Shown piece after piece: positions 8,300 to 64,000 of a stretch of 64,000 bases of DNA; the stretch's first letter is position 1, and each line of letters begins with the position of its first letter. This DNA comes from Styela clava (Eukaryota; Chordata; Ascidiacea; Stolidobranchia; Styelidae): the NCBI RefSeq assembly GCF_964204865.1, contig NC_135260.1, positions 8,618,001 through 8,682,000 of the forward strand, given 5' to 3'. The translations under genes and the position numbers were made by a program. Below the pieces are notes generated by a model. That model saw only the letters and a list, made by a program, of their open reading frames with translations, was not told the origin of the DNA and did no database searches.

Positions 8300-9075
8300 A
8301 TCTACCGTACTTCTTCCGTTTAGTGTTTGGCTTTTTAGTGACCTCAGCCACCTCACCATCTGTCGAAAAAAATTTCATCCACTTCTTCCTTTTAGTGTTC
8401 AGCTTTTTAGTGACTTCAACCACTTCATTATTCGTCGAAAGAAATTTCATCCACTTCTTCCTTTTAGTGTTCAGCTTTTTAGTGACTTCAACCACCTCAT
8501 TATTCGTCGAAAGAAATTTCATCCACTTTTTCCTTTTAGTGTTCATGTTTTTAGTGACTTCAACCATCTCATTATTCGTCGGAAAAAATTTCATCCACTT
8601 CTTCTTTTTAGTGTTCATCTTGTTAGTGACTTCAACCACCTCATTATTCGTCGGAAGAGTCGTTGGTCGGAAGAAATGTCATCCACTTCTTCCTTTTAGT
8701 GTTCAGCTTTTTCGTAACTTCAACCACCTCATTATTCGTCGGAAGAAATTTCAACCATTTCTTCTTTTAGTGTTCAGCTTTTTAGTAACTTCAACCACCT
8801 CATTATTCGTCGGAGGAAATTTCAACCACCTCTTCCTTTCAGTATTCATCTTTTTAGTGACTTCAACCGCCTCATTATCCGTCGGAAGAAATTTCATCCG
8901 CTTCTTCCTTTTAGTGTTCAGCTTTTTAGTGACTTCAGACACCTCACCACCCGTCGGAAGAAATTTCATCCACTTCCTTCTTTTAGTGTTCAGCCTTTTA
9001 GTGTTTTTCAATTTTTCACCTTTGGGAACATCTCAACTTCCGTTTTTCCTTCACCTCATCCGTTTCTTCTTTCAG
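8300..9075 (-). repeat. Right arm of inverted pair: tandem 72-bp repeat array
   Basis: About nine units of the same 72-bp repeat as 515-1380 lie here, reverse-complemented. On the minus strand the frames 8298-8639 and 8751-9011 are open and again give the NTKRKKWMKFLPT-type 24-residue repeat. The plus strand is also open over 8164-9099 because the unit lacks stops on both strands, so openness alone is not proof of coding. The outer edge (9000-9075) mirrors 515-600 of the left arm, including the gtgaaaaattgaaaaacact block. A third, degenerate piece lies just outside at 9201-9320 in the orientation of the left arm. Confidence 0.85.
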
Positions 9076-12805: not shown

Positions 12806-15800
12806 ATGGGAGTGGTACGATACCGCCCTTTTCGGACAGAAGTTTCCATACTGTTGTGGATCATTGTAGTAAGTAATAAGTATTTATCATCATCTACAAT
12901 GATAGTAGATGGTCTTATTGGTAGTACGCTCTCCTGTTGGTCTAGCATTATTCTGTATAGTCATGCTTTACAGTATTCTGAATGATATCAAGTTTTCCTG
13001 ATGCTACAAAATTTTACAATAATCTATTTAAATGCTTTTTATTTTATCAATTTTCAGCAGAACTATTTTATTGTAAAATTATTGTTGCGAATTAAATATT
13101 TGTTACGTATGCATGTTATATTGCTTAACCACACACAGTGCAGCTGTTATAATATTTTGAGTGCGATTAAATTCTTGAATTTTGTCTTAATAAATTTTAA
13201 AAGTTTAGATCCAAGATATGTACTGATATGTAGTTCTTTGTTGCAGCTAATGTATATTTGCTTTCGGCAAGTTCGCCACAGTGAAACCAAACTAGCTTCC
13301 GTCACATTTTTTTGGAATATTTTTTTTGTTCTTCTCGCATTATAGACTTGCTTGGCATGTAATTCGTGGAAGATTGTTATGCTATCTGCTAATCGAGGCT
13401 GAAAATTTATGTATTAGGTCTCAATATCAGCATTACAACCTCTTAAACCAAAGTAGTCTACCGAATGTTCAAAATGGGGTTAAAAATATATATGCATATT
13501 CAACATGGTGATTTTCGACTGCTGGAAATTAGACTTTGGGTTTCACCATTTTAAGAGTTTAAAATTTCGATTCACTACTTCTGACTTTCGACTTCGGAGA
13601 GCTGATAGGATGAAATATGCCAATTTCTGACTCCATAGCTATTCTTATTCAATATATTCCTCTTCTTTTCGCCTACACTTGTCAATTGTCGACAGGGTGA
13701 TTGTCAAATTGATATTAGTTAAGTGATTCGAATATATATATATCGTAGAACCTTGAAGATTTGGTCTTTTTTTTTCTGTGTCCATTCCAAATTTGATGAT
13801 TAGGAAGCCTTGAGCAACTCACCTTAACAAAGCAAATATTGTTTCTTAGTTCACAAAATTGGTGGATGCCCCACCAGTTTGTATTGTGCAAAAAAGTGCA
13901 GAAGATAGTTGTGGCAATGATGGTGTTTTTGAAACGTCAAGTGATGATCTCCCTGATTGGTGTTGCCTCTGCCCAGCTGGATCTTATATGGTCAAAAAAT
14001 GCCCGTAAGTAGATATGTTATAATTTAATTTTAGTTTGTGATCTGTTTAATTTCATGTTTTCTAACTTTTGTGTCATAAGCCAAAATACGCAAATACGTT
14101 TAAAACAATAGATGCATTTAATGAAAAAGTTATCGGTCTACTATTTGGCATGGATGGCATAAAGGTTTGCTGGAATGCGGGCCTCAAATGTCAACGAAGA
14201 TCCTGGGCACCCACCAACTCATTTGTTTGTGAAACAACCATATTTCATGCTGTTTTTCAAAGGAAATTTAATTTTTGGTAGAAATAAACCTATTATCTTC
14301 TTAAGCTTTGGAATACCAACTGAAACAGAGTGCCTACCTTGTCCATTTGATGAGAATGATTCCAATAATCAAACGTACACTGAAGTAGAAAATAACAGAA
14401 CTGAATGCTCTAAATCTAACGATAAATCATTCTGTGACAAATTCATGAAAACTCATTACGTAGCTGCTTCTAGGACACAGGGAAGTCGGTAAGTAGTAGT
14501 TAAGTTTTTAAGTTTTAAATATTATTTAAAGAAGGTACATAATAATGTATATACTGCTTTTTCACTTTGACTTACCGGTAAGTATATCATGGTATGACTC
14601 TATGAGGAAACATTCATTAATAAAATTATGAGTTAAGTATTTCAAGCATTTTTAAAAGGAGTGAATACTGAAATTTTGAAAAGTCGTTAAGCTGGTTTCT
14701 AATCATGGTTTGAATCAAATTAAACCAAAGAGTTCATTTTCTTAAAACAGCTTTTTTCAGGGTTACCCATCTCAGGGTTAAAGTTCTCAAGATGACATTT
14801 TTAGAATTTTGTGTTTTCCAGTTGAAATTTCTCAAAGTAAGGTTATATATGCTTACGGTACATAAAAGTAAAGGTCACTCACCTATGAGTGTTATCAGTA
14901 ACTGTAAAAAATCAACCTATAAAATTGATAATCGACTATAATAATCTAAGATATTGTAAAATTCTAATACAATCTAATAGCATTTTCAACAAACCTAGTT
15001 TGTAAAAAACTTGTAAAATACTGTGTTTATATATGTGACAGTAACTATTGCCATATTTGATAAAAAAAATTTCTTTACAGATGTGAATGTAATGATGGAT
15101 TTCACAGGAGTAATAAAGATACTGATCATGCATGCTACGAACATAGTCCTTGTGTTCCTGGTGGGTTGCGAAATTTTTTACATTGCATATCACTGACTCT
15201 GAATTGGCAGTATCATTTTACTATGCATCATTCATGTTATACATTCTAATTTAAGATGCTGTTTTTGAAAAGAAATAAAATGGGAAAAATTATTAGAATA
15301 CTGCGGCAGTCAAAAAACATACAATGTTTTTGAATTAAAATATGCAATTAATTACAATTGTTGTCCCTATGTTGTCGCCTCAGCCAGGATGTGTTAAATT
15401 GGAAAGGCAATGCCAAATCCGAAAGGTTCCAATCCTTAAAAAATAGTAGCGTATTATATATCAGTAGCTGTTGTACACTGCCTTGATTGGAGTGAACGGT
15501 GTGAATAAGCATAGTATTTACCTCTATTTTTCAGCAAAATTCATTTATGACAAATTGTCCTTTTACATAAAATTTAACATTAAACTTGATTTTATTTAAA
15601 AAATGATTACCGAAAATAAAAAATTCTCATATTGACTAAGTTTCTATACAAAGTATTTTTGAAATAGATTTTATTTTGACATTTTTGACGAATCCTGTAA
15701 GGAATAATTACGTGCAATAGGATTTCTGGTCTCCTTCTCTGCCACAGGGTGGTTCACGTAACGGCTTCCTCCACTACCAAGTTCATGCATTTTGATACAA

Positions 15801-18800
15801 ATAACTGGTTAACTAATGGACTGGTTATTGAACAAGAGGCCGTGGTTCGCCATGGGATCAAGTCATTTTATCAGATTTCCTTTTTGTCAAGATAAATATG
15901 TAAGTCCTATCTTATGTAAAGTTCGAATTCATGTTTTAAATATTTTTACAGGTTTTCAACCACGTTTACTAGGCAATGCAACAATGGATACAGAATGTGA
16001 AAAATGTCCAAATGGAAAGTTCTCAAATGTATCATCTTCTATTCAGCTTTGTGTAAAATTTAAACGTAAGTTGATTGAATCTCTGCTCCAGGAGACTCTT
16101 ATTCTCGTTGTTCTATCTGTCTGTGTGAATTAAAATGATTATCATTTTTTCTTATGACAACTATCACTGTACTTGTTTTGTAAAAAATCGCAATACTATT
16201 TGGTTATTACGCCACTCTAATATTACACTCTAATTAAGCATAAATTAACCAGACGTTTACTCCCTCTACTACAGTAGTAGAAATATTTTCATAATCTTTT
16301 TTTGCTACAGTGCTATCTGATCCTTCTAGGACAACCTGATGTATTTTTATGCGATGCTCATTCTTATGTAAGCTTTGAACGAGGCACTTTCCAATCAGTC
16401 ACTGATATCCAACAATATGTATGGATCTACTTTAATTGGAAGCTTCAGAATCTTAACATTCGCCATTGTGTACCCAATTTATTACAAAATGGGTGAAGTT
16501 GTTGAGGGTGTATAATTTGAACTGAAGCGCTGTATAACATATAACATACGGTACCAACGTCATTACATCTGAAGTCACTTAGCCACTGCACTTACAAGTA
16601 GTACATATTTTTTTTTAATTTAAGTGTTATAAAAACTATATTTGCAATCTCTTTGTTTACGTTTTTATTAATATTATAAAAGCTATAATTAAACATTATT
16701 TCTCACATAATCAGGTGTTCAGAACTTGAAACGGCTGTAGGAGGAAGCAGTACCCATGATATTATTTGTACAATAAGATCGGATATTATTTTACACACCA
16801 CAACTGATGCTCCAGTAACAACAAGTTTTTCCAAACCTTCAGAGCAAGGTCAGTATTTTTAAAATATCAATTAGAAAAAAAAATTATAATTTTTATTTTG
16901 CGCCTTGAAATGGTATTAGATTTGGGAGTGAATAGCACATGACCTCGGTAAATAATATTGACAAAGCCAACTAAAGGACTGTATCTACCCTGTATCTTTA
17001 GGGGAAATACTCCTCTCTGAACACATGGCATGAACTATATATTGTATGCAGTGTTTTTACATGAGTCGGCAAGATGCAGGGGTCATACATCACTTTATCT
17101 TCTAGTAATCATATTATTTTTGAAGTACCCATATCCAGGCTTCGTCGCACAAGCCAGAGACATCACCTTATAATTGCCGCTAAGTTTTTAAAAGAAAAAT
17201 AACAGCTGGTAGTACAAAGTCAATTACGGTAGAAAACAAACAGTAGTCATGGTTGCTTAAAAACACGCTATCCCCAGGAAAATAAAAAAATATGAGCCTC
17301 CCCCCCCCCCCCCCCCCAAAAAAAAATCAGGCTACTAAAATGGTGTCCAGAAAATCGAATTAATTGCCACAAAATATGATACTCCTGATAATGGGTTAGC
17401 GGACAAGAACATTCATATTTTAAAAGTCTTATCATTCTATACAACAAATTTACAAGGCTGTGTAAAAGCAGTCACTGATATTTAAGGAGGTACTATATAA
17501 CAGAAGGAGTGGAATCTTTCCTTTCCCAGGATGACAGATCTTGAGCAATTCTGGGTGTTTTGCCAGCATAACAATTTTATCTGTGTATTAAATACCCTTT
17601 GCTAAACATTCATATCTAATTGCGCAACATTTTGCATCCTTAATAAAGAATTCATAATTATATTGTATTCTTTCAGGCTCATTTATTGGTGTTGGTTCCA
17701 TTGTTGTTATTGTTGTCGGCTGCTTGACCTTCATTGGCCTGTTATTTTATTGTATATGCAGAAGTGAGTATTGTAGTAACGATATTTAAATCATTTTGAC
17801 AAATAATATTAATCATGATTCCAATTTAGGATATATCTTTTCATATGTGCATTGGTTATGAAATCTTTTTCAAATTCAAATATTTTTTATAATTATTGGT
17901 AACTAAACTCTGATATTCTGTCTCTATTCTTGTTCACAGTATTAGACCTATTGTATTTATTACTTTAAGATGGTTATACACACATTCACGCACCTTTTGT
18001 TTAGTATTTACTTATCAGAATGAAACACCTGAAAACCCACAGGTTTTGAAACTTGGAAATGAATAAATACCAGCATTTGAGGGCACTTTGATATTTAGTT
18101 ACGAAGAATGTAAACTTGCCCAGTCCAGTACTTAGAAATAGAATTTATTCCATAAAAAGTTTCAGGGCCAGTGACTTGAAAAAAGTAGCTTTTGTCCCAA
18201 GAACAACAAATATTGGAATTGCTCTATAGATAGATCTTCCCCTACTAAATTTTAGGTCGTATGTATGAGAAAAATACACTAGTTATTTGATTGAAAATTC
18301 TCACTCTTACTCAACCATGTTTATTCTTTATCGTCTCCCGATCAATGGAAACTACTCAATCAATACCTTGCTAACTCATTTTTCAGCAATTAGGCTTTCG
18401 GTAAGTGATTCAGCATTTGGGTGAAGCCTTTTTGTTGCCCTTTGTGACTGCGTGATTCTTTTTCTCATTTTTATTTTACCAAATTTTACTTTATTTTTCA
18501 TTTCCATTGAAATTCATATGTTTCATTTCTTTGTGGAGCGATATCAAATGGGATGTGGTGCAACTGAGTCCTTATTTTTAAAGTCAGATATTAATAATAT
18601 GATGTCATAGAGAAAATTATGGAAAGTTGAATTATCATTTTACAAAAACTTTTAAGACATTCATTCTCTAAAATAGGGCGATATTTTAGGTTACTGTGGT
18701 TAAGAACTGTTTTAGTCAAAATTTTATATCTCATTTATGCGATAATTATTTCTGGATAGAGTAAATACTGATTGAATAATAGAAATGCAATTAAAATACT

Positions 18801-21800
18801 GTATATTTTCGGCTATGTTTTAGATTTTCTTCTGCAAAAAGTTCAGTTTTCATGAATCTGGGGTCTCGCCCTGTGATTCTGGAATATATCCGCTCTCATC
18901 TGATGTTACCACATTTGTGTGGGCATTACAAGAAAAACCTATCACCGATACCATAACATGTAATAAATTGTGAAAACAAGGCATCTTGACACATTGCGCA
19001 TGTACTGTAATGTAATAAACATGTCGAAAAGAGAGGGCACATTGGCGCATAACTGGAGAAAAATGAGTAAAATACAATTGATAAATATAGTGCATATCAG
19101 TGCTCAACTGACCAATGGAAAAAAAAAGTGACAGACATTCTGCCACGGCTCATTACGCAATAATATTAAGAAAAAAAAATTGTTCCGATTATTGGTTGAA
19201 AGATATGGTGTATTAGTAAAATTTTAGTTGAGGGAAAAGTTAAAATATTTTCACTTTTCAATATTTTTATCTTGTAATTTTTTAAGTAAAATGCTCCAAT
19301 TTTGCTGAATTACTGACACAATCAAATAAATGGGGGTTTATGTTATTTGGTGGCTTGTTATTTTTTCATTGTTTTGTATTGGCCTGGCAGTGCATGATTT
19401 TGTTCGTGAGCATGTGCGGTGCACTATCATCCTTTTTTTTTTATATGTGATATTTATGTGCCTTTTGTTCTGGATATGACTCTGCGAGAGCAGCTGCTGG
19501 CTAAGAAGCTGCGGACCCAGCATAACAATGTATCTTTTTAGAATCAGTATCTATGTGCTATTGCTTCATATATAGTAGGCAAAGTATTCTTCTCCTTATA
19601 TAAATTCAAAAACTTCTGAAATATTGAAAAATTTAAAAACAACTCTTAGGGGAACCCATGGTAAAATTTATTGCGCCACGCTTGTCAACCGTGCTCATCC
19701 TAAACAGTTAGAATCTTGTGGGTGTAGTGTAATTTTCGATCATGATTGATTATGTGTTCTTGTACATTGACTAGTAACGGGACGAAATACCATTGTTTGC
19801 GCTTTGAATGATCTGTCATATCAGCTTATCCATACAAATGATTTTGAAAATCATATCCTGTATTAGGATAGGATTTACGGTACATATTTATCCGAGGATA
19901 ATGGAAATTCGATAAGACGGCCTAATCCGATGGTGAACCACGGCTTTTCATCCGATTACCAGTCCATGTCTGGTATGGGATTAGTTAGTCAATTATTTGT
20001 TTCAGACACATGGACTTTGATGGTGGAGGAAGCAGTAACCGACCAGCGGTTATGTGAACCAGTTCTAGCTAAGCTGGAATCTTTGTTATAAATTTTCTTA
20101 TATATTTCCCATGCTAGAATATATTAATGATTTTTAACCTTTGCTTCTTCTTCTGCAGGAAAAGAAGAAAAGGAAAATTTGGTTATCCAAGCGGTAATGG
20201 AACTTCAAGAAAGGCCAGGTATAGTGAAATTATTCAATCATTTTTTTACGCTTGTCATATCTTTAACAAGTTTCACTCTCAATTAAGCTCTGTACAGACA
20301 CCAGGCAGCAACAATCCTGTAGAGAAGCTGTTAGGTTCAACCTCAGTACTGTTGAATGAATCGCTATATTATTGCTTGTAGACATGTAACATCGGTTATA
20401 TAAACAAATATGTTTCTAGATATTTATATTAATTTAAAACTATTTTTTCCTATTTTAGGTGAACAAAATCAGGGTAATAATCGTGGGGGTGAGTTCTAGT
20501 TCAATGGACATATTTATTTGTCATTTTTGAGTAGTCATAGGGAGATTTATGAAATTTATTGAAGCAATGGAAACATTTCTCTTGTTTGAAACACGATTGC
20601 AAATCAACTCACTAGAGATTGAGGGACAAGAGAACAAAAGTAATTTTTAAGTAAATTTTTTTTTGAGTGGTCGACAGTGGTTCCAAACTTCTCATCATTA
20701 TTAACCTGTTCGAAAAAAGTTGCAGTCTGATATGATATGTACACAAGTTGTCCCAACTAGAGATGTATCGGCAATATCGACCATTTTTTCGATATCGGTC
20801 ATATATCGGTATCGGCTAAAATAATACCGATATTTCCGATATATTTACTTTTTTAATATGATCCAGAATGTTTTAAAAGATAAGTTGAAATACTACTTTT
20901 TAATTTCTTTTTTGTCTGGAGAGATCCTGAACTATGGGCCATGCATGTCCCCACCCCCGCGCATAGTAACAATAATAGAATTCCCCTGTTTTTAAATATT
21001 TTCTAGCCAAACTAACTCAACTAATTTGACTATTTTCGCTGCCAAATTTTTATATTGATATTTCAATATTACATACTATACATAGTAATTATGAAGAAAT
21101 ATATCAACACAGCCCAGAAAAATGAGCAACTAGTCGCCCAGTTTCAAATCATACAGTGGAATCCGAGTTCTTTTTTACAGCACATGGACTTTTTGGCACT
21201 GCTATAAATTCTGACTATTTATCGTCAAGCGCGAGTGTCATTTAGTCCGTCGACTTCGTTAAACTAAATCCAACACAAGTATTATATATTGTGATTTCAG
21301 TAATTCTAATTTTGTAAACACAATTTCTTTATAAATTTATTGGCGTGGCCACCTAAACTGTCTCAAAATATAGGATAGTAATTGTGAAATATTATAAAAA
21401 ATAAAAATAAAAAACATTCTCGACGTAATATAGGTACCTCTAGTCGGCGCTGATTGATATCCTTTTATTTTGACTGTAATTTATTGCCGCGACGATTACG
21501 ATTAAACACAAAATAAAATATTTTAAAAATGCTTCAAATTAAAACGTAGGACGGCGGCGCTAGAATGCGTGGGCGATATTCGTTATTCTTTTAAACACGA
21601 AAAACGGTATTCGAAGGTCACTGAGATTACTAACATCGGTGCACAATGAATCTAAACCAAATAATGCATCTGGATACCAAACATCAATTTCATATTATGT
21701 GATATATCTCTTTTTCAATCTGAAATAATGTGTACTATGAATAATGCTCAAATACCATTGTTTTAACCCCTCTGCCCTACACAGCACACTTAATTAGGGT

Positions 21801-24800
21801 AATAATTACCAAATATCGGCATTTTTGTAATATCGGTGAATCGGTATCGGCATTTTTAGTTGGTATTGGATCGGTATTGGCGACAAAAGTGGTATCGGTA
21901 CATCTCTAGTCCCAATCCGAAATAATGCTCGTTTTCATTATCACTGCTCAGTGCACACGGAAATTGTCTCAAATTTTTGAGATGATGTAAGAAGAGACGT
22001 CAGTCGTCAATCAGTCAGATGTTTTGCGTAGATGAGATGCTCAATATTAAATATTATCATCAAACTTTTCCTAATAGCTAGTTGGAATATCATCTTTGTG
22101 CGTTCATATGAATGAGATTGTTAGTTACCTCATTGGCATCTTATGCCAACAAACTCCCCATAATCTCTGTCGACCGCTGGTTGGAAACCACTACCCCAGA
22201 CGCCCCAGAAAATATAGGGTGTAACATAAATTCTAAAATTGATATATTGAGAACTGACTCCATAAAAAAATTGAAATTGTAGAGGGACTTTATGGACACC
22301 CTTTATATACCCATATTAGGGAATTCTATTAATATAATGTCATAATCCAGGATGATTCTAAAGAATTGATTCTGGCACAGGAAGTTTAGAAAATTGCTAT
22401 TTATTTTTACAGATGCTGATAATTCAAATGGAGACATTGGTGGTAAGTTGCAAGTTGTGTCTAGAATTAGATTCTAGTACATTAATTCGACAATTTTATG
22501 AAATACCAACTAAAAGGCTTCAATCTTTTTAAGATGGTACACGAACTTAAATATTTTTAATATTGAACTTTGATGGCAAATACAGTGTATTTGGAAACTT
22601 ACGAATCACAACAAGAAAATCCTAAGACTATATACTTCAAATTTTATTATAAAGTTATATGTCGTCATTTTTTTTCTATTCATTTCTATTATTTTTCTAT
22701 TCATTCTAATTTTTTTTAATTACACATTTGAAACCTTAGATGTCGCAGCTCGATAACCAGCTTTGGTTCCCCTTGACTTTCCCATCCCCAGTAAATCTAA
22801 AATTTTTGTTCAATTGATTTTCTTTACTGGTCGGAAAAAAATAAACTTGACTTGATTTTAAATCATTTATAGTTTCAGATTCACAAAATCCGTTAGAGAC
22901 TCCAATTCGACAAGAAAATTCTGGTCACAAGTTTCTACATAAAATGACATGCGAATTATCCTTGCTACAACTACGATAATCGAAAAAACTGAATAATATA
23001 CTTTTATTTTTCTACAGTCATTGCACCTCCAGAGGACAGTGGTAATACCGGCAATCAGCCAGGAGACAGCCCGGACCATCCTCAGGAGGTGCAGTAATAT
23101 TTTGATCAAATAATAAATATGATCTGAACTAGATAGTACTTTTGTTTTCATTTTAGCTATTACACATTGTGTATATTTTCATTTGAAATCAATGCTAAAT
23201 AAAATAGAACATTGGTTTTTAATTTAATATGATTTTATTTCAGGAACATGTAGCACCAGTATCTCCACATATCGAAGGTAAAAAATTTAATGATTTGTGT
23301 TTTGCATTCGTTGTTACTTTTTTATGGGATGTTTTAGTGTAACTTAGGCTATATGCATGCAGAAACTATACTATATACTTTGAAGTTTTATAATAAATTT
23401 TCATTGATTTTTTCAATTTCTATTCTGAACAACAAAAAAGTAATACTGAATTAATATAAAATACTTTTAGTGCGATACATACTTTAAATTTTGATATAAA
23501 ATGTTATGTAATATTATGCTGACTTCTCAAATAGTTCTCAGTATCTTTTAAAAACACAACATTAATATTTTCTGAGGGTAAGTTCCTGTGTGAATTTTTA
23601 TGTGAAATTTTTGTGTTGCAAATCATTGATAAGATTATAACAGACTGTAATGTTCCTTCTCAGGTCCGAGTGTTTCTCTTCCTGAAGAAAATGGTGATAA
23701 CGCCAATCTACCCAGTGAAGGCCGAGAGAATCTTCAACAGGTATTTTATAATATTTCAGTAGGATGTATCATTGGAATTAGAATACACTTTTGTATCCTT
23801 TTTTACTTTATGTATATGGCATTTTACATTGGGTATATTTTTTCTCTAGTTGTTATATTTCATTCAATATCAGTAATAAATAAAACAATACAATAATTTT
23901 TCATGTTTTCATTTCAGCAACCTGATACAACTGTAGCCCAACCTACTCAAGGTATTGAGAATTTAATGATCACTTTCTGCCATTCGTTTCATTTTTATGA
24001 AATGTTTAACTAAAATCTAGGCATTGTACAAGCTCTAGTGACATTTATGGGCTTGGCCTTGCTACTTCGACTGGTTGATATAATATTGCTTTTACTAAAT
24101 AATTTGAAGTTTATCATAAAACCATTGTGGAATGTGTTATTATTTGAATTTCTAAAATTTAACTTTTGCACATAGTTATATATTTTTTAAATGACATTAA
24201 CATTTTAGGTGAAACAAATGTTCCAAAGCGGCCAACGCAACTTCAAAATCTTGGGGGTGAGTCTTGTTTAAATAATTTATGTCACGTTTTACAACCTTGG
24301 TTACCTGCATTTACATTGGCTAATTGGGAAGATGTCAGCAAGTCAATTAAGTAGAGTCACTGCTATTACTGTCACATAAAGCAAAAATTGTAAAACAAAA
24401 CCAAAGTGGATGGCTTGGCGGGTAAAGAGTTAGAATTAAGTTGGCAACACAGATTACACATATCAGGATCAAATCTGATTTCAGTAAGTGTAGTATATAG
24501 GACATGAAAAAAAAATTATGCAGATCCAATTTAAACACCTTTTTACAATCTAGAAATCTATAGACGTAATGAGGAATCTGACAATGCAAATGAATCAACA
24601 TTATTATTGCAACAAGAACAGGTAGGATCCCAACAGGTATTGTACTATTTATTGTTAAATTTTTTCAAAAAGATATCAAAGCGTAAATCATCACATTACA
24701 TACCTTGAAAATTAAATGCTGTGATTTAGTTCTGGCGCCTATACAAATTATATATGCCTACTCAGGTCTACTATTTGGTATTGATTACTATAGTTCAATT

Positions 24801-27800
24801 TCTGGATGTCAAACTGGTTTATAGATTTAAATACATATCTGAATAGATGTTTTTGTGAGGTGAGAATCATTTTGCCATATTTGATATATATCTGACCAAT
24901 ATCAAATCATATAATATTTTTCCTCTAGTCGTTTCTTTTTGAAGACTCTGCTCTGAATCAGTTAATCCCACAAGATGACTTTTGTTATGAATTCAGTTCT
25001 CATATATAATACCCAAATTTGTTGTTGTTTTTTAAACGGAAGAGAGATGAGAGCTTCAAAATTGGTCAGGGAATGATACTATTTATCCTACTCTGGTTGT
25101 GATTTAAGGTATCTTTTTTTTTTAGAAAGTTCCCTCTCCAATCTATGACACAGCAGAATTAGCGTTTGCAGATGGTTTGTTTTTTATCCTCACCTTATTA
25201 CATTTATGTTAATTATTTGATAAGAAGTAGACCTATAAATCGTTTTGTTATTATCTTGTTGTCATTCTTCTTCTTCTTGTTACTTATGAAAAATCGCATT
25301 TTTATCATTCACTACTGGACCAATTGCTTCGAAATTTTCAATGATTAAAGATTGTATTTCTCGCTGGAAGGCTTCCTTTTTTTTCCTTAAATTTTTTGTG
25401 AAATTCGATATTTTATCTAAAATATGCTGTATTATTTTTACTTATGGAACATATTTTTATGATATCATGATTCATGACGGCTGTTACTGGTAGTCTACTG
25501 CAACATTTTGCATACCAATACTACCGGTTTGAATTTCTGAGCATCGTTCTTTTGTTACACGAATGATCTTTGAGTATTTAGATTTTGATGTTTTTTTTCC
25601 AACATCTTTAAGTACTTTAAAACCTCTTTTATTACTATTTCCCCTGTATGTAACTGACTTGTTATGTTGTCTTGAAGTTGATGTATAAACTTCCAAAGCA
25701 AGATTTTTAACAAAAGCAATTATACCACATGACTAACTATCCGATATTGACACTTTATGCAGATAAATGTACCGTTAATTGTTTGTTTTCAAATCACCCT
25801 TGCTTGAACCAAATCAAAAAAGTAAGGAAATGCAATCATTCAGTAACAAGCCTAACTACAGAATATTCTACTTATCGTGGCTTGAGAATTTATAAATATT
25901 TTTGTAGGTGAATAATTTTGTGTTAGTGAGGGGCACGGCACAAATGTACATTTAGGACAAATTCAAAACGTTACCTCTTGTAAAAACAAATTCAATACCT
26001 CAAATCCCATGTTCAAACTTGCTATATATGTACTTAAATCGTTCGTTTTCATTGATCTTTGGCATAGCTTTGAGTTTTGTGCCTACTGCCTTATGGCAGC
26101 GGTTTCCGGCACACCTACACAACAAAAATTGCTGCCTTCAAATAAAACTCAATTTTATGATGTTAATGTGTATTTCATGCTTTTTAAAGTTTGTAGGCAC
26201 TTAGGTATGTGGTTGCTGCTCTGAACACAGCTTTCAAATATACAATCATATATTAGTTATGTTTTTAACACAATTCTGGTTCGAAAATTACCAGAATTGT
26301 GTTAAACATTCGCGCCACACTTATTAAATCAAGTGCACTATTGCTTCTTTTTTTTTGGGGGGGGGGGGGGGGGCGTAATCGCTGCCGTATGGTTTAAGAC
26401 CAAAGCATGTCATTAGTATTATATTGTGATTTAGTAGAACCCAATGGAACAGAAGATCTCCCCCCGCTAAAGAAAGGTGACATAGTTGATCTCCCCCCGC
26501 AAAAGAACAGTGACCATAAAGAAAAAGATAGATCAACTGTAAAAATACAAATAAACGAATCTCAAGATCAAGAAAACCTCAGAAAGGTACTTTTTATTAC
26601 CTATTGGCCCAGCTGAGTTTGGCAATACTTTACAAGCTATTGTTCTTATTAACTATTAACTATCAAAATTATTAGTCAAAAATTTTGTTCAATAATTTTT
26701 TGTTCGACAATTATGTTTAATGTACGTGATACCCAATTTTTTGGATTGTCAAATAACTAGTACTAGTACAGAGTGCTTCCTCGATTTCATTATTGGTTTC
26801 TATGAAGTATAAATTTGAAATAAATATCGTATACTCAAGTTTTTTTGCGAAATTTTAGTGGCATGAATTAATTTCTGGCCTCTAATTCCAATTTTCGTTT
26901 CCAGGCTGCGAGACCTAAAAGCATTGAAGGTTAGTTCAACCTAATATCAATACCGTGATTAAAGATTCTATGCCTTATTATTGATACATTGTATCTAGCA
27001 TTTGGAACAAGTTTCCCCCTTTGCTTGACTCTTATGATTGAATTCTACTAAATGGCTTCGTCATTGTAAGGTGGTTCAGTAACAGCATCACAATTTGTGA
27101 CACCATCACATTTCATAAATCTGAAACGATTATTTCTTTCTCGGTTTGGACATGATTATGCAATATTGTTGATATTTCTGAAAGACTAGCAGTAGAAGAA
27201 CTGACTATTAGCTAATTTAGGTATGGGTTATTTATCAGAGGGCGGTTCTCTCTTTTTTGACAAAAATACGCTGATTTGAAAATATTCAGCTGCTACCTAT
27301 GTTAAGTCACCATTGTACAGTAATATACCGGTAAATCATTCAGACCAGTGGTTCTCAAACTTTTTTGTACTGTCGCTCCTTACATAAATTTTTATGTTAT
27401 CATTTTCGTTAACCATATTTGACTATTCGAGAATGCCCCCCTGTCACCCATTTCGAAGCCACATATTTTATCTCTTTCGGCCCTGGGGGGCAATATTGCC
27501 CACTTTGAGAACGCCGATCTAGACAGAATAAACAATCTTTTGCATATCGTCAAACTATGGCCCAATTGATTGTGTTTTCACATTATTGCTGATATGAGGA
27601 AGATTTATTTTGCATTAATGATTCTCTGTCGAGCTGTTTTGGCTAGTTGTGTGACTATAATTAAACCAATATACTAACTTTATATCAGATCAAGGAACAT
27701 CTGACATATTTAAATCTGTAGTAGATATTTTGATAACAAAAGGTAGATTTAAAATCCAAGTTTTGACAATCGCCTTCTAAATTTTTTCGATTTGTCTTGT

Positions 27801-30800
27801 GAATTCAACTGCTCTGTATCAGGTGCTTCATCATCAATGGAAACCAAACAAACTGTTGGGACGGAATCTGTTGCGGGAGCAGTTGCTAATAAAGTAAGGA
27901 AGCTTTTTTTGTAACCTAAGATGTGGTCATCAATGCATCTTTAATATTCTCTCTTCCGAGTTTCAACAATACTTTCATACAACTTAATTTCAATATCTAT
28001 ATCCTTTATTCCTTTTTCACTTTACGCTGAATAAATTATCTTTTTTTTATGATCTATATTTTATTTCATCTTTTTTTCATTCAAAGATGCAAAAATATTT
28101 TTTTCATTTTTAAAGCGTAATGTTTAATCCTCATTTGTTTGTTTTCAATATAATCTGAAAATAATCCTTTTACATTTTTATAATTGTATTCAAAGTTAAG
28201 ATCTGAGATTAGGAAATTACATAATTTTTGTTAAGGCTATGAATGAAGGAAACCTTCGAAACTTATCTACGGAACTTCGTACATCTTATAGAGAACGCCA
28301 AGACTTTTTACCTGACGTGAGTATTCACTCCAACTACTAAACAATCTTCTACTAACATTGTTAACTGAAGCTATTTCTAGGTAGAAGACCACTTTTGCAG
28401 GGCAATAAATGATAAATTTTTTGCATCTTAGAACTTGAATGATCGCAGTTACACGACTGTAATTCGGATATCTTTGATGATTATTATATCTCTTATAGAG
28501 ATGGAGCTAACTCATGATATAAAATACACTTTTTCAAAATAGCAACTTTTTTTTCTAAATTTATTCAACTTTTTTCGTAAATCTATTCCTGATGAATTTA
28601 GGACGTGGCTTAATTATAGTTTAAACATCTTAAGTTTCTGGTTAAAAAGTCATCAGAATGCTTTTAGTAATATTAAAATGACTTTGTTTATGTCACCTGC
28701 TGGCAATATTTACATCTGAGTTATTTTACTGTGTTCAAATCTGTGATGCTTTCAAATCTATAGTTAGAATTTTAATTTATTTTAGTATAGTAAAATATAT
28801 TTACAGTGCTCTTCAATACGATATACCCAAGTGTATATTGTAAGTTGGGTATACAACTGATAAAGGGTATATGAAGGATGTACAGCCTAAGTCAGGGATT
28901 CTAAACGTTAATATAATAAACAACAATTCAAACGAGGCGCACATGAAATATAAAATGTCTTTAACGCTAAGAACAAACGTGAGCACATTGTTACATCATA
29001 AATTATATAGATAATGCGGTCATGTTGCCTGGGTTGGTGATTTTGGCTGCTATGCACTTGTTTGATTTACGTTTAACATTATTTCTGTTGATGCTAAGGC
29101 CCTCAGTCAAATTTATAACTTGCGGACACTAGCCTATTAGATTGCATGATGATATTGCAGTACAATATGTGCTTAAAATTTATTGTTTTTTGAGCCTTAA
29201 ATAACATTGGTATTTGTAAGGTATACAAAGTTCTTGAAAAATTGTAAAAGGTATACCCTGATAAAAAAAGGTTGAAAAACACTGTAATTATAGATCAGCA
29301 CTTTGTTTTTGTAGGTGGAAGTTTGTTGTGTTGAAAGTCATCTTCAAGATCACAAAGTTGGTGAGAAATGTTTCATATTTTTCGGATTATTATCCTAAGT
29401 GATTCAAGAGTCTTGCTGCACACTAACATAAATATATTTCTGTAATGTTTCGTCTGACCAAGGTCAGACTTCTTCAGACATACATAGTTCAACTATCACT
29501 TAGGATAGTTAGTTATCTTTACTCTTGCTACAGCACTCTTGCGTTATATGCATATGGATCCACTGGTACAAAAGCATAGAAGAAGGATAAGTTGTTAGTC
29601 TCGCAGAAACCAAATAATTAGCACATTTCAGATTTTTTTGCTCTTTGTGAAAGTGAAACCTGTTGAATTTTTATTTTTGTAAACTTTTAAGCACCAAACT
29701 CAGTGACTTTTGAAGAAATGTAAACAATAATGTAATAGCTTGTAAAGACATCCATCTACTGTGTACCAATCATCAAAAAATAATTTTCTTGAGTAAAGTT
29801 TCAATTCAACAACTTTTGACCAGTTCAAGTATATTAGTTTATTTCCAAACAAAATCCTTTTTTGACGATGTTAGTAGTTACTTCAGCAACAAAGTTAAAT
29901 TGAAATATTCACTCAATTTTGTGTAATGTATGTAAAAAAATTCATTTCATCCTTGTATTTGTACTATCTATACATTCATGGGTGCTCCCGTAGTATGTGA
30001 ACCAAGATCGCGGACACCGGAACGTAGTAAGTGTATTATGTTAGGGTTAGGCCATAATTTTATTCCAATTTTACTTATTTGAGTTCAATTACAAGTTCGG
30101 GGACTAGCCAATTGACTCTCGTAGTATCTGTACCTGAAATTGTTACCTAACCCTAACCTGGTACACATACTACGTTCTGATGTCCGCCATCTTGGTTCAT
30201 ATACTACGGGAGTACCCATTCTTGCGGTATCCAGGCCGGATAGCGACTGTCAAAACAGCGACGTAATCAAGTGAGCGACATTCCAAACAGCGACCGTCAT
30301 AATGGCCACCGCAATAAAACAGCGACTGTTATGATACAGACTTAACTCGTGTTCACTGGGTCGAATTTCCGGGTAGGTCGTTGCTCGTTGGAAGGCAACG
30401 CTTTGTCGTGTCACATTAATTTTAAGGTTGTTTGAAAAATTTGCCCCAATGGATTTCATAACTTCAAGAAAAGGAAGTGACATGATATGTCATGAAGGCT
30501 TTTTGTACAGGAATGCTTTTTGTACAGTTGTGTAGTCGCTCTATCGACAGTCGCTGTTTTAAATTAATCGCTGTCGTGTGGTCGCTCTATTGACAGTCGC
30601 TGTTCTGACAGTCGCTATTTGGAATCCTAGCCCATTCTTGCACATTCAATTTGAACAGGAAAGACGATGATAGAAGCACTAGAAGACAAAAGTGATAAAG
30701 ATCTTAAACCATTTGTCAGGCGTCTCCTCAAAAGAACGATAGCAGTAGAGGAAATTGCTACAAGTATGTGTTTCACTGTAATTTTTTTGGATACAGACTC

Positions 30801-31795
30801 AAATAGTTTCGTGAAAGTATGATGGTATTTTTTTTCTTCCTTAATGTTTTTGATCTCAATGTTGATAACAAAGTTGAGATAGAGAGTGAGAGAGAAATTT
30901 ATTGGGACTGTGGTACAATAAAATATATACAAAATATGCAAGTAAATTCGGTATAAACTGTGGGGAGCGACACAGTGAGTCCAGACTAGACTTGTGTCAG
31001 TTTTTTTGAGAGACATTAAATAAAATTTTGCATGAATAAAGCACAAAGCGGTGCGGTTCATTTGCATCAAACATAATGTCATAACATCAACTTCTTGATG
31101 TAATATCTGACCTCTGCGTCATCATTTAAATCAGGGCTACTCAACTGGTGGGCCGCGGTCCGAATTCGAGTATTTGGTTCGGAGGTCGGACCACACATAT
31201 TTCTTTATTTTGGATCATTATTCATTAGCCCCACTTTTGAAGTTTCATTTTATAAAATGATTTTTATAGTTTCGAATATATATGAAAAGTTTAACACCAT
31301 AATAAACAATCTAGATTAGATAATAATTATGAGTCGGTCGAGGAAGTGTGCGTTCAAGGATGCCGAAATATATTTTCTGGAAACACCGGACCCAAAAAAG
31401 TTTTGTATGCGGATCTTCAGTAAAAATAGTTGAGTAGCCCTGATTTAAAAAGCATATACTATAAAATTGGATGCTTCATTGGATCAGCCTATAAGGCAAA
31501 ATTCTGCTTTTATGCTACCATGTGAACTCATTTAAAAAATGAGAGCCAATGTTGGGGAGACTCCAGTCTGATCATGTCACACTCCTTGAATTTCATAAAT
31601 TGCTCTCATTCAGATCATCAAGGAGATAATAGAGAAATGAAACATCAATGGATTCAAGCAGTTATTACTCAGAAAGGGCGAAAGTTGACCCCGCAAGTTC
31701 TTTTTGATAACACTCCCACCCACTACCAATCTTTTAAAGATACTTTAGAAGATAAATTTTTTGAAAATCTGAAAAGATGTGATAATCATTCATGA
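12806..31795 (+). CDS. TNF-receptor/CD40-like receptor, 26 exons, 688 residues, very long cytoplasmic tail
   Basis: I assembled this gene by eye from AG/GT sites; all phases agree. Exons: 12806-12868, 13850-14004, 14306-14488, 15081-15160, 15952-16065, 16723-16848, 17677-17763, 20159-20218, 20459-20488, 22413-22442, 22879-22923, 23018-23088, 23244-23277, 23664-23740, 23918-23951, 24209-24256, 24554-24621, 25126-25174, 26438-26586, 26905-26929, 27689-27742, 27823-27893, 28236-28316, 29315-29360, 30659-30763, 31614-31795 (TGA). Residues 1-28 look like a signal peptide (RTEVSILLWIIVFTKLVDA). Residues 30-200 hold TNFR cysteine-rich domains: WCCLCPAGSYMVKKCP, TETECLPCPF, CECNDGF, CVPGFQPRL, DTECEKCPNGKFS. 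Four N-glycosylation sequons are visible (NQT, NRT, NAT, NVS). Residues 243-268 are a membrane helix (SIVVIVVGCLTFIGLLFYC). The tail of about 420 residues is polar and Pro/Gln/Asn-rich; its last 135 residues may be a helical module. Receptor for a TNF-type ligand is inferred from family. The first exon, exon 6 acceptor and exon 17 donor are the least certain choices. Confidence 0.82.
15729..15860 (+). repeat. tRNA-related SINE family fragment, copy 1
   Basis: It lies in intron 4 of the TNFR-like gene. Shared blocks with the copies at 19870-20055, 48180-48310 and 54690-55005 are gcttcctccactaccaagtt, gactggt and gaggccgtggttcgcc. The orientation is opposite to the copies at 19.9 kb and 54.7 kb. 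The tRNA-like head is missing here. Confidence 0.55.
17298..17327 (+). repeat. Homopolymer pair: long C run followed by A run
   Basis: About 19 C are followed directly by about 9 A, in intron 6 of the TNFR-like gene. The mirror-image pair (T run then G run) occurs at 26347-26374 in intron 18. Confidence 0.8.
19870..20055 (-). repeat. tRNA-related SINE family fragment, copy 2
   Basis: It lies in intron 7 of the TNFR-like gene. Blocks aagacggcctaatc, accagtcc, ggtatgggatta and ggaggaagcagtaaccgacc match 54700-54880 in the same orientation. The tRNA-like head present at 54.9-55.0 kb is absent. Confidence 0.6.
20758..21908. mobile_element. hAT element, non-autonomous, 1151 bp
   Basis: The ends tagagatgtatcgg and the inverse of ccgatac...catctcta are terminal inverted repeats of the well-known TAGAGATGTACCGAT type. 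Subterminal copies of atatcggtatcgg are frequent at both ends. The flanks GTCCCAAC (20750-20757) and GTCCCAAT (21909-21916) are an 8-bp target duplication with one change. No transposase frame is present. It sits in intron 9 of the TNFR-like gene. Confidence 0.85.
22214..22306. mobile_element. Small TA-flanked inverted-repeat element (MITE)
   Basis: The left end tatagggtgtaacataaa and the inverse of the right end (tataaagggtgtccataaag) are similar inverted ends about 93 bases apart, in intron 9 of the TNFR-like gene. This is typical of mariner-like MITEs; the assignment is tentative. Confidence 0.45.
22738..22858 (+). repeat. Retroposon 3'-tail family, copy 2
   Basis: It contains tgtcgcagctcgataacc, ccagctttgg, catccccagtaaatct, ttactggtcggaaa and aaataaacttgac in the same order as the copies at 10697 (+) and 45178 (-). 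It lies in intron 10 of the TNFR-like gene, just upstream of exon 11. Confidence 0.6.
26266..26304. repeat. Perfect 15-bp inverted repeat (hairpin) in intron 18
   Basis: taacacaattctggt is followed after nine bases by its exact reverse complement accagaattgtgtta. It lies 134 bases before exon 19 of the TNFR-like gene. No element boundaries were found around it, and a function is unknown. Confidence 0.75.
27346..27518. mobile_element. hAT MITE, about 173 bp
   Basis: The left end cagtggttctcaaacttttt and the inverse of the right end (atcggcgttctcaaagtg) are imperfect inverted repeats of the common CAGTGGTTCTCAAAC hAT type. The target duplication is only partly visible (cagac and agac). It lies in intron 20. 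Confidence 0.65.
29978..30219. mobile_element. Palindromic MITE, 242 bp, in intron 24
   Basis: The terminal inverted repeats are about 39 bases long (atgggtgctcccgtagtatg, then tgaaccaagatcgcggaca, and the inverse at the right end). The paralogous intron near 38360 lacks it, giving a natural empty site. The superfamily is not assigned. Confidence 0.8.
30226..30630. mobile_element. Second MITE nested at the edge of the first, TIRs with gcgactgtc motifs
   Basis: The ends share atagcgactgtcaaaacagc and its inverse. The matching flanks cccattcttgc (30215-30225 and 30631-30641) include the last bases of the preceding MITE, so this one inserted second, into its right end. The repeated motif cagtcgct recurs several times inside. 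It is also absent from the paralogous intron near 38360. Confidence 0.75.
31132..31442. mobile_element. hAT MITE, 311 bp, in intron 25
   Basis: The left end cagggctactcaactg and the inverse of the right end (cagggctactcaactatt) are near-perfect inverted repeats. The flanks ATTTAAAT and ATTTAAAA match at 7 of 8 bases, the duplication length of hAT. Confidence 0.85.
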
Positions 31796-37555: not shown

Positions 37556-38659
37556 ATGACAGCATTTTGTGGCAGTAATAACCTTCGGGAATTGACTTTG
37601 AAACTTTATACGTCTTATAGACATCGCTCAGATAGTATAACCAACGTGAGTATTCATTTCAACTACTTAACTGCTGTACATTCTTCTACTAACATTGTTA
37701 ACTGTAGCTATTCCTAGAGATACAGCCACTTTGGCAGCGTAATAAATGATAAACATTTTACGCTTACGATGTCCAGCAACTGAGAACTGGAATGATCGCG
37801 GGTAAATAACTGTAATTTGGATATATTTGATAACTCATATATCTCTTACCGATATCTGGATATGGAGATGTTCTGTGAAATTTATAATCAATAAATTTAG
37901 TTATAATTGAAATTATCTTGAATTGAGTTTTTGATAAAAAGTTATCAGAATGCTTCTAGTGCTGTAGTGAAGTCAAACTGACTTTGTTTATATTACTTGA
38001 CAGCCTTATTTACATCTGAATTATTTTACTCTGATTAAATCTTTGATTATTTAACTCGCAGAATCTATAATGAGAATTTGTATTTAGTTTAGTACGTATT
38101 ATGTTGAGTATGGTAAAATGTATTCATAGATAGGACCTTTGTTTTTGTAGGTGGAAGTTTGCTGTGTGGAAGGTCTTCTAATTGATCCCAAAGTTGGTAA
38201 GAATAGGACTGTTAGATGTTATGACAAACAAAAAAAACTTTTTGTTAATTGCTTCGACAACAAATATATTGAATTATTCTTTCAATTATGTGTTATGTAT
38301 GTAAAAAGAATTTCATTTCATCCTTGTATTTATACTATCTATACATTCTCGCACATTCAATTTGAACAGGAAAGACAATGATAGAAGCACTACAAGACAA
38401 AAGTGCTCTAGATCTCAAACCATTTGTCCGGGCTTTGTTGGAAAGAAAGATAGTAGTTGAAGAAATTGCTACATGCATGTGTTTCACTATAATTTTTTGC
38501 GATGCAGGCTCAAATAGTTTCGGGAAAGTATGGTGGTATTTTTTTTCATTAATGCTTTTGATCTCAAAGTTGATAACAAATGCAACAGTACGATTTAACC
38601 GGAATACCGGTAGGTGCTCGCCACTAATACAGTCTAATAATACTGTAATAATTAGTTAA
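37556..38659 (+). pseudogene. Partial duplicate of the TNFR-like C-terminal tail module, broken last donor
   Basis: Three exons parallel exons 23-25 of the large receptor gene: 37556-37645 (opens with ATG; LRELTLKLYTSYRHRSDSIT), 38151-38196 (VEVCCVEGLLIDPKV) and 38370 onwards (TMIEALQDKSALDLKPFVRA). Lengths and phases of the first two match the parent. The donor after the third exon reads acatgcatgt where the parent has acaagtatgt, so splicing is lost or weak and the frame runs on to a stop at 38657-38659, crossing into a solo LTR. The equivalent of parent exon 26 is absent. It may be a dying copy or, since the frames are clean and an ATG is present, a small cytosolic protein that shares the receptor's tail module. 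No ectodomain exon was found upstream. Confidence 0.6.
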
Positions 38660-38998
38660 GAAGATCCAGTGTGCTGCAAAGACACACAAATAGGTTCGAA
38701 GTTCACGATGCAAACGAAGAGACTTTATTAAAATGGTGTAAAATCCACGCTCAAAGCAGATAAAATAAGAGCGACAAAACACGGTCCTTACCCAGCGCAG
38801 CAGAAGCAAGAAGAGGCTGACACTGCGAATCCGCAGCACATTTCACATATGCAGGGGTGGTTGGAGTCGAGAAACTGGGACCAACTGTCGGGCGAATTAG
38901 GCTCAGACTCCACACACCAATGCATATGCAATAACTAGACACAAAATATACATAAAATACAAAACAATAAAAAATAGTACAACTCCAGTCCCGCCACA
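38581..38998 (-). mobile_element. Solo LTR of an LTR retroelement, 418 bp
   Basis: On the minus strand it begins TGTGGCGGGACTGG and ends TGTTGCA, giving TG...CA termini, with an AATAAAGTCTC polyadenylation-type region inside. The flanks are CAAA on both sides (38577-38580 and 38999-39002). The paralogous sequence near 30867 (gttgataacaaagttgagat) is the uninterrupted empty site. No internal coding region is present, so it arose by LTR-LTR recombination. Confidence 0.8.
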
Positions 38999-40354
38999 CA
39001 AAGTTGAGATAGAGAGTGAGAGATAAATTTATTGTTTTGTCAACTAAAAACAAGCTACGGGACTACGGTACAATAAAATATATACAAAATATGCAAGTTA
39101 AATCGATATAAACTGGGGAGAGCTACACATTGAGTCCAGACTAGACTTGTGTATGTAAACATATGTGCCTACTGCAAAGTATCTTCGCAACGTTAGTTAC
39201 ATCGGCACGATTACAAGACTGAAAACGGTTCTCTTCGATATACCGGTAAGTATATTTACGCCAGTGACATTGCCTATTTGCTTTGGGTATTGGCGTGGAG
39301 TTGACTTGATGGCCAAGGTATAGATAGAGTGAGCAAACTTTGGGTGTTCTATTGCATGGTGTGATAAATTCTTCTGTTTCCTAAGCAGATCCTCCTAGAT
39401 CGTCTAACCATCACTATAGATTTTGTAGAATGACAATATATCCCAAAAGCATTTAAAAGATTACTTTGTCTAATCTAATTAATAGTTCAGCATGTTTCCC
39501 TTCATTCAATCATAAAACAACTACTTGCATATTTGTTTTTCGTTTTACTTCGCAATTATTGAATGGAGGAAAAAAATCAAACAAATACTCTGATAAAGAG
39601 ATCCTGTGAAATACCAATTTTATTCCTATATCCTCGTCTGAAGTCAATATCCAAGATTCCATTTTCCTGGTCTTTCTGTCGCCATTGTAATGAAAAAAAC
39701 TTTACTTACACCCTTTGTCACCAGTTTATTCCCGTACCCTATTAATTATAATAACTTATACTGTTACCGTACGGGTAGCTTTGAGAAGTTATTGCAATCT
39801 GGACTATAACTTGGCAATATTTGTGTTTAATTTAAGAAATGAAGTGGTCTAGCTAACCCACCTCTCCATGCACCCAATTCTGGCAACGTTGATTTGGGCA
39901 ATTTGGCATTTGACTCCAGCTATAATCAGATTGCCAATATGTTTTCAATAGAAGTTTTTTTACTGTTCACTCCCGATTAGAAAATCGACCAATTCGGCAT
40001 TGGCAACCATTATAAAATTATTGATATGGCGTGGCAAATAATTTTTTACTTTTTTATTGTTTTTGAATACTATGTGACTTGCGATAAGTTTATCGCATTT
40101 TTTTTACTTAATAATTGCTCCGTGGTTGTGCGTGTGTGAAATAATTCAATAATTTTAGGTGAGTGAACACGTACCAATTCTTCTTGGCAATACCTTCCAT
40201 TTTATATTTTGTACGTTTTAAACATTATCTGAGGTTTTGTTTGCTTCCCTGATTTCATAATCAGTTTTTATTTATCATTTTATTGCCAGTTATGCGGGTT
40301 ATGGAGTCGAAATAAATCTATTATTATCATTAAACTTCTTTTTTGTGTCGTCAG

Positions 40355-59494: not shown

Positions 59495-60076
59495 CCATGC
59501 ACAGTAAATATACAACTTGGTTTCTATCCTAATGAATATCTAGTTATATATCTAAACATAACACAAGATCCATTATGCAATAGAATATAAAAACACAAAA
59601 ATATGTGTCTTCAAAGCTTATTATACACCACTTTAATGAATTTATGCATGAAAATTGAATTACGAAGAAAATAGTATTTGAGAGAATATATAGAAATTAG
59701 CAGAGAATAAACCTTGCCCAAATGGGTCATGAAACAAAGAAAATCAAAACTAATTTCATAACCAGGAACTCATTTATTTATACACTTGCACCGAATTAAG
59801 TAATGCATTATAAAAATAACATAATTTCCGTCACATACAATATTATTATCAAAAACATGTGGAAACATCAGACTGTAAAAACAATGAAGTATCAAGTGTT
59901 ATTTCAGTCACTATTGAACTTTATTAGATGTGAAACTTTCACGATTTAAAATAATTTTTACATAATCACAGTAATTATAGTAAATATAAAATAATCTAAC
60001 TCGAAAAACATTATTGTCATACTACTGAAAAAAAAAAATTCGTGGCAATTACTATTCATGCATAATCATGTTCTAT
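59495..60076. promoter_or_regulatory. Intergenic gap between GOT1 and EXOC5 (both minus strand)
   Basis: At 582 bases it must hold the GOT1 3' end and the EXOC5 promoter unless the two are co-transcribed. TTTATT at 59930-59935 gives a minus-strand AATAAA about 142 bases past the GOT1 stop. No promoter motif was recognised. Confidence 0.4.
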
Positions 60077-61330: not shown

Positions 61331-62068
61331 ATTCGCTAATTTAATATAACTCTATGATACAATTGAAGAATTCCTAAGAATGAATGAAAGTGTTAGCAAC
61401 TATACAGAAACAAATTTGAAAAAAATTGTGAAATCAGCATTGCTACATGAATGTAAATACCAAAAGTGTGTGTCTGCTTATCAATTTTATTGTATAATTT
61501 GTATTAATAAAAATAAAATGCAGTAGTGTAGTAATAGGGCTCGAAAATTCACAAAGTTTTACAACATTAGCTACCGCTATTGTTAGTTAGGGTACAAAAA
61601 TATAGGTAGAGGTTGAGTGAATAGGAATCATGATCTATAAAATTTTACTGAGCAAATATTCGCATACAAAACAAAGATTTGCAGCATGAAAGTAAGGTTG
61701 CAAAATTTGTCAAATTAAAATGAACTCAGCAGGTGAATTGGAGAATTATTATTTGATAAATATTGTTATTCATGATATCACATTTTAGATTCAATTACAT
61801 AATCTCTTTATTTAATTAAAGAATTTGCCATAATATATCACATTATAAATGTTTACACAGTGCAGAATGCAAAAAATCAAGCGGTAGAAAGTGTCACAAT
61901 TAAGGTTCTAAGTGATCAACTTATATATTTTGAAGTTTGAAAAACTTTCCAAGTTGCCAAACTCTCATTGTCTGGTATATGATTACAATGATCATCGTTG
62001 ATCCTCTTTTTATATTGTATTAGACAGTGCTGGGTATTATTCAGATACAGTGAACTAGCCTTTTCAAC
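61331..62068. other. Intergenic gap between integrase-derived gene and GOT1; no gene seen
   Basis: AT-rich sequence without coding content. It should contain the GOT1 promoter on the minus strand; no element was recognised. Confidence 0.4.
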
Positions 62069-63505: not shown

Positions 63506-64000
63506 ATTTAATAAAGTTAAATATAGTGTCTGTGAGTAGTTATGGATGGAAGTAATAATTTAATTAAAGCCTACAGTAAGCTTATCTACTTTCAGACGAT
63601 ATGAGACTTTCAGACCAAGAGGTAACATAAGATGGTTCCAGTTTTTTTGCGCCTGAAGGAGTGAGATCAGAAGATGTCTCGGGTCTGGTGTAGTTTCTAA
63701 CCTTAGGTGTGTAGGTACTTCTAGTGGACCTAGCATACCGTACCGGGTAACAAAATGTCAATCCTAACCCCCACCTGACTGCACCATTCAAAAATTGGGT
63801 CTCATGTAGTTTTGGGGTCTGGTATAGTTTAGTACCACATGCACTTCTAGTTGGCCTGGCTCAACAATTTTTGCAATATGTCCATTCTAACCCCCACCTG
63901 ACTACGGTACGTCATCGAAAAATTACGTCTTTTCGACGTCACAGTGGCGAAGTGGACGTACGGAACTTGTGGGACGGTACCACCTACTAAACTATACTAG
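63506..64000. repeat. Imperfect dimer repeat with inverted end at window edge
   Basis: Two related units begin with gggtctggtgtagtttctaa (about 63676) and gggtctggtatagtttagta (about 63818) and share ctaacccccacctgact. The last bases of the window (ctactaaactatactag) are the inverse of the start of the second unit, so a TIR element probably continues to or ends at the window edge. No coding region is supported. Confidence 0.5.

Follow-up and report, generated by a model that had tools for sequence, protein, structure and literature searches.

A CD40-like TNF receptor gene of the tunicate Styela clava, very probably recorded as two unrelated proteins

Introduction

Tunicates and vertebrates are sister groups, and the gene considered here, from the ascidian Styela clava, finds its closest described counterparts among receptors of the tumour necrosis factor (TNF) receptor (TNFR) family, CD40 ranking first. 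It occupies positions 12806 to 31795, on the forward strand, of a stretch of 64,000 nucleotides (hereafter the window; assembly GCF_964204865.1, contig NC_135260.1, positions 8,618,001 to 8,682,000). Tunicate TNF ligands have recently been reported to form large and rapidly changing sets, two Styela species having 10 and 13 such genes (PMC12843592); two reports touching on tunicate receptors deal mainly with three TNFRs in Ciona (PMC4979521, PMC10923776). The former, a 2016 survey, counts three TNFRs in Ciona intestinalis, none of them with a death domain, while the latter cites the detection of FAS in Botryllus. No paper titled on the present receptor was found in the open-licence literature on Styela clava and TNF receptors, which does not imply its absence from print.

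Very probably, the locus is a single tunicate gene for a CD40-like receptor, with a tail of orphan type spread over many exons and, between exons 5 and 6, a junction that is either broken or switchable. In the public records found, its two halves stand as unrelated proteins, the reading frame being interrupted at one splice junction shortly ahead of the membrane segment; this points to a concrete and testable annotation fault. The favoured reading, to which a probability of about 0.58 is assigned, is that this single gene encodes a CD40-like TNFR made up of a signal peptide, a cysteine-rich ectodomain, a single membrane helix and a tail of some 420 residues, and that exon 5/6 splicing determines which product is made.

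The gene model and the deposited proteins

The exons were picked by eye from the window sequence and then checked by script; phase agreement is therefore partly by construction, and the phases alone are weak proof of a 26-exon chain because the exons were chosen to fit. The rebuilt chain is open from the ATG at 12806 through to its stop codon, whose last base is 31795, and comprises 26 exons and 25 GT-AG introns (80 to 2395 nucleotides) of agreeing phases, encoding 694 residues. Independent support comes, at the protein level, from two deposited Styela clava records. The first (P0002), named "TNFRSF5-like" and 206 residues long, is 99% identical over 65% of the first 309 residues of the model (the only match among 315 candidates) and consists of exons 1-5, at 100% identity, followed by seven exon 6 residues in another frame; the second (P0001), the uncharacterized protein LOC120347193 isoform X2 of 396 residues, is 91% identical over 59% of the 694-residue query (the only match among 5080 candidates) and runs from the methionine of exon 8 to exon 26, skipping exon 21 and with small shifts at exons 11, 12 and 19. 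It differs from the window model by 16 substitutions in 393 aligned residues, with no stop; a query with its C-terminal part returned P0001 alone (50 candidates). The exons are as follows.

12806..12868, +, exon 1: start codon and hydrophobic, signal-peptide-like N-terminus (windows beginning at residues 13-17 exceed a hydropathy of 1.5); identical in P0002
13850..14004, +, exon 2: cysteine-rich; identical in P0002; CD40 match from residue 58
14306..14488, +, exon 3: cysteine-rich; identical in P0002; CD40 match
15081..15160, +, exon 4: cysteine-rich; identical in P0002; CD40 match
15952..16065, +, exon 5: cysteine-rich; identical in P0002; aligned without gaps with CD40
16715..16848, +, exon 6: candidate starts at 16715 (used by P0002; frameshift and stop), 16723 and 16741 (both in frame)
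17677..17763, +, exon 7: transmembrane helix (hydropathy 2.84, acceptor 14.1, donor 8.2); absent from P0002 and P0001
20159..20218, +, exon 8: basic juxtamembrane start; P0001 begins at its methionine
20459..20488, +, exon 9: linker; in P0001
22413..22442, +, exon 10: linker; in P0001
22879..22923, +, exon 11: linker; in P0001, there with two extra residues (VS) at its start
23018..23088, +, exon 12: linker; in P0001 with a one-residue difference
23244..23277, +, exon 13: linker; in P0001; tandem duplicate of exon 15
23664..23740, +, exon 14: linker; in P0001
23918..23951, +, exon 15: linker; in P0001; tandem duplicate of exon 13
24209..24256, +, exon 16: linker; in P0001
24554..24636, +, exon 17: linker; the longer end is the one used by P0001
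25126..25174, +, exon 18: linker; in P0001
26435..26586, +, exon 19: linker; in P0001 minus the first residue (acceptor 3 nucleotides later)
26905..26929, +, exon 20: linker; in P0001
27689..27742, +, exon 21: in the rebuilt model only; skipped in P0001, no other support
27823..27893, +, exon 22: linker; in P0001
28236..28316, +, exon 23: C-terminal module; in P0001
29315..29360, +, exon 24: C-terminal module; in P0001
30659..30763, +, exon 25: C-terminal module; in P0001
31614..31795, +, exon 26: C-terminal module and stop codon; in P0001, same end

Taken together, the two records match 23 of the 26 exons; exon 6 is matched from another acceptor, and exons 7 and 21 have no counterpart in either. 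An earlier, sequence-only reading of this DNA had proposed a 26-exon protein of 688 residues with agreeing phases; the open chain and the deposited proteins bear this out in part, the exceptions being the exon 5/6 junction and the two exons found in neither record. Its length of 688 residues is reproduced when exon 6 starts at 16741, a figure that other small splice shifts could give too, and the proposed architecture is present as well: a hydrophobic N-terminal stretch, CD40-like cysteine-rich domains, one transmembrane segment and a tail, of 426 residues in the rebuilt model against the some 420 proposed.

Two further observations concern the introns. A possible in-frame alternative last exon lies after exon 17 at 24928-25009 (+; SFLFEDSALNQLIPQDDFCYEFSSHI, then a stop), with an acceptor-like start and no other evidence; a dispersed repeat occurs at 15758-15902 (intron 4), at 19881-20058 (intron 7) and at 54711-54888, the copies within the receptor model being in opposite orientation.

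The exon 5/6 junction and the frame break

Exon 5 ends in phase 1. The splice used by P0002 (16065 to 16715) reads KFKRVQNLKRL and meets a stop after residue 206; past the junction the frame is kept by acceptor 16723, by acceptor 16741 or by skipping exon 6, which give 694, 688 and 652 residues, respectively. At this junction the chain of the sequence-only reading is not confirmed: it requires acceptor 16723 or 16741, and the frame break of the deposited annotation had escaped that reading. Splicing to 16715 would, by its frameshift, yield a 206-residue ectodomain devoid of membrane anchor, which may be secreted and possibly act as a decoy, while the weaker in-frame options (16723, 16741 or exon 6 skipping) would yield the membrane receptor; a full-length membrane receptor is a likely product.

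Three observations weigh against the favoured reading. The in-frame acceptors, scoring 3.0 (16723) and 3.4 (16741), are exceeded by the frameshifting one (16715, 4.6), and all three fall below the other 24 acceptors (5.9-16.1), with a matrix that was built from those other 24 introns and hence favours them. The frame preferred by homology, in which exon 6 reads CSELETAVGG after KFKR, is unreachable from exon 5 by any of the three acceptors or by skipping exon 6, as expected of a broken gene; in this frame the match to CD40 rises from 53.0 to 56.9 bits, to OPG from 36.9 to 44.1, to DcR3 from 35.6 to 43.9, to HVEM from 21.6 to 27.5 and to DR6 from 25.6 to 30.5, and scores increase for 22 of the 22 TNFR sequences common to both phmmer searches, one unrelated weak match being lost. 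Finally, no deposited protein was found that contains exon 7 or joins ectodomain and tail, in searches that need shared five-residue words and similar length and are not exhaustive.

Since homology prefers, in all 22 cases, a frame that cannot be reached, one base seems to have been lost or gained at or near the junction, this being the simplest cause of the break. Such a change could mean that an ancestral receptor gene is now broken, in this allele or in the species, leaving only a secreted CD40-like ectodomain, with the membrane exon and the tail untranslated or decaying; the end of P0002 at the frameshift stop, the higher scores in the frame no longer reached and the top score of 16715 among the three exon 6 acceptors all speak for this explanation, which is nevertheless rather unlikely, as the tail is open through 19 exons (8-26) and its deposited counterpart carries substitutions and no stop. 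The same single-base difference, if it were an assembly error hiding an ordinary, intact full-length receptor, would account for both the frame break and the split annotation; this is very improbable, there being no long homopolymer at the junction. P0001 too begins beyond the break, and its differences from the window mean that it may derive from a second assembly, although this point is not diagnostic. A point in favour of the single-gene receptor is that the tail runs without interruption from exon 6 until the final stop codon.

The membrane exon: one gene or two

The segment encoded by exon 7 is 29 residues long, and the splice sites of the exon are strong (acceptor 14.1, donor 8.2, with matrices trained without exons 6 and 7). 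Within 16849-20158 no other candidate passes the cut-offs of exon 7, chosen once the exon had been seen; at loose cut-offs, slightly below the weakest other exon, two candidates appear, and their common acceptor is that of exon 7. Among 300 dinucleotide shuffles of the region, none gave a candidate at exon 7's own cut-offs and one did at the loose ones. Exon 8 follows in phase, continuing with RKEEK. By hydropathy both the N-terminal and the exon 7 hydrophobic stretches are present, joined in no deposited protein found.

The deposited records, taken at face value, describe two adjacent genes, one for a CD40-like secreted protein and one for a separate cytosolic tail protein, and indeed P0002 and P0001 are separate and no joining record was found. 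This alternative is judged quite improbable: a single gene is favoured because a strong, in-phase transmembrane exon lies between the halves, and the tail begins with basic residues directly after it. P0001 moreover starts at the first in-frame methionine after the break, as would be expected of one open reading frame of a longer transcript, an observation that does not discriminate, since the same residue is also the first methionine of exon 8. On the single-gene reading, both halves would be carried by one transcript.

The ectodomain

Against PDB sequences, the best phmmer match of the ectodomain is CD40 (53 bits, E 3e-13, residues 58-215), followed by OPG, DcR3, TNFR2, RANK and DR6; P0002 alone matches CD40 with E 9e-12. 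By best-match ranking, the assignment of the ectodomain to the TNFR type, closest to CD40, is supported, as the sequence-only reading had anticipated. The check with Pfam TNFR_c6 that it proposed gave a different outcome, P0002 scoring 8.1 bits against a cutoff of 29.4 and the family not being listed for the full model; the assignment is therefore based on the full-length phmmer comparison with solved structures, not on Pfam. This failure is not taken as excluding TNFR membership, because divergent members of the family can miss the TNFR_c6 model. The receptor would presumably bind a TNF-type ligand.

A second ectodomain considered at 52.7 kb was dropped, being a repeat that is present at 42.1 kb too; the near-identical cysteine-containing open frames at 42148-42369 and 52715-52963 (+; IEMCGINHVIT...) are probably a dispersed repeat.

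The tail

The tail spans residues 269-694 of the rebuilt model and is, as had been claimed, long and made of many exons. E, Q, P, N, S and D are abundant in its first 290 residues, which include one duplicated exon: exons 13 and 15 are tandem duplicates of each other, adjoining intron sequence included (score 70, z 16.9, reached in 0 of 200 shuffles, whose mean is 22.9 and maximum 36). The alignment covers these exons and flanking intron, and not exons 12 and 14; from order and phase, exons 12-13 and 14-15 may have been copied as a pair. This was the only repeat to pass z 3.5 among the non-overlapping pairs of ten blocks, and it lends some support to the earlier proposal that the tail has been elaborated. 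The further suggestion of a scaffold role is not sustained: TRAF-type motifs are at chance (2, 0, 2 and 0 matches to four patterns, counts reached in 1183, 2000, 287 and 2000 of 2000 shuffles, respectively), and so are PxxP motifs.

No Pfam family exceeds the cutoff in the tail. Substitutions relative to P0001 number 3 in the last 137 residues and 13 in 256 linker residues, a difference that is not significant (p 0.19). The AlphaFold model of P0001 aligned with four window fragments shows a helical C-terminus at a mean pLDDT (predicted local distance difference test) of 35.3, too poor to decide the fold, and that of P0002 alone, at 37.6, is too poor to use; with the P0001 model, Foldseek gave 25 matches (E up to 10), none at or below 0.001. 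With low confidence, the C-terminus may be described as a helical-looking orphan module, and the tail would be a disordered linker ending in this module, which presumably recruits adaptors.

A death domain was first suggested by the motif KPFVRRL, which resembles KEFVRRL of TNFR1, but the claim was given up on the following results. Pfam detected none; pairwise scores were reached by 204 and 84 of 2000 shuffles; a typed profile gave 2.9 bits, reached by 77 of the 1860 shuffles scored out of 2000 (last 97 of the 137 C-terminal residues), compared with 19.6-65.3 bits for left-out real domains; and hhalign returned a probability of 2.2% versus 91.9-98.5% for four controls. DED and CARD fared no better (profile scores reached by 962 and 206 of 2000 shuffles; nothing by hhalign), whereas genuine domains left out of the profiles stood clearly above shuffles. 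Chance was taken to explain both a weak hit to mitochondrial ribosomal protein S15 (E 0.045) and the Pfam hits that scored far short of their cut-offs. It is a speculative, unlikely proposition that a lineage-specific tail has replaced recognisable TRAF and death-domain signalling and ends in an orphan helical module, possibly a death fold diverged past recognition, with the soluble decoy as the default splice product and the membrane receptor as a weak alternative; were the module a death fold, the gene would encode a TNFR-family death receptor in a tunicate.

Copies and neighbouring features in the window

One partial copy of the gene was found in the window:

37580..39152, +: partial, decayed copy of 28251-30997 (exons 23-25 with introns), in blocks 71-86% identical

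The donor of exon 25 is changed in this copy, apparently a fragment in decay, and no additional copy of exon 26 was detected in the window by tblastn. The earlier idea of a lineage-expanded receptor, in the sense of extra gene copies, is not shown, this fragment being the sole copy found in the window.

Elsewhere in the window, arrays of one 72-nucleotide tandem repeat lie in opposite orientation at 631-1356 and 8309-9003, about 7 kb apart, with arms of at most 350 nucleotides that are 88% complementary. Three open frames are found on the reverse strand: at 57359-59539 an uninterrupted one of 726 residues, for the exocyst subunit Sec10 (Pfam Sec10_HB, 5e-131), intronless in an intron-rich window; at 60077-61351 another of 424 residues, intronless too, for cytosolic aspartate aminotransferase (PDB match, 1.7e-165); and at 62069-63559 one of 496 residues, for which neither Pfam (at 0.01) nor PDB (at 0.1) gave a match.

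Comparison with known receptors

The nearest counterparts of the gene in the records are P0002 and P0001, which together are the two halves of the gene model but stand as separate entries, both without membrane exon 7. The death-domain receptors (TNFR1, DR3, Fas and others) share with the Styela protein the resemblance of its KPFVRRL to the TNFR1 motif and, in a low-confidence model, a helical C-terminus; they differ in their death domain, none being detectable in the Styela tail by Pfam, typed profile or hhalign. The orphan tail suggests that TNFR signalling in tunicates may involve components absent from domain libraries, and a CD40-like receptor bearing such a tail is a candidate partner for the tunicate TNF ligands. 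With CD40 (TNFRSF5), and then with OPG (TNFRSF11B), DcR3 (TNFRSF6B), TNFR2, RANK and DR6, the protein has in common the cysteine-rich ectodomain, aligned over residues 58-215, whereas its tail of about 420 residues, encoded by some 19 exons and with TRAF motifs not above chance, sets it apart from CD40-type receptors; the tail of vertebrate CD40 is much shorter, and that of RANK is about equally long.

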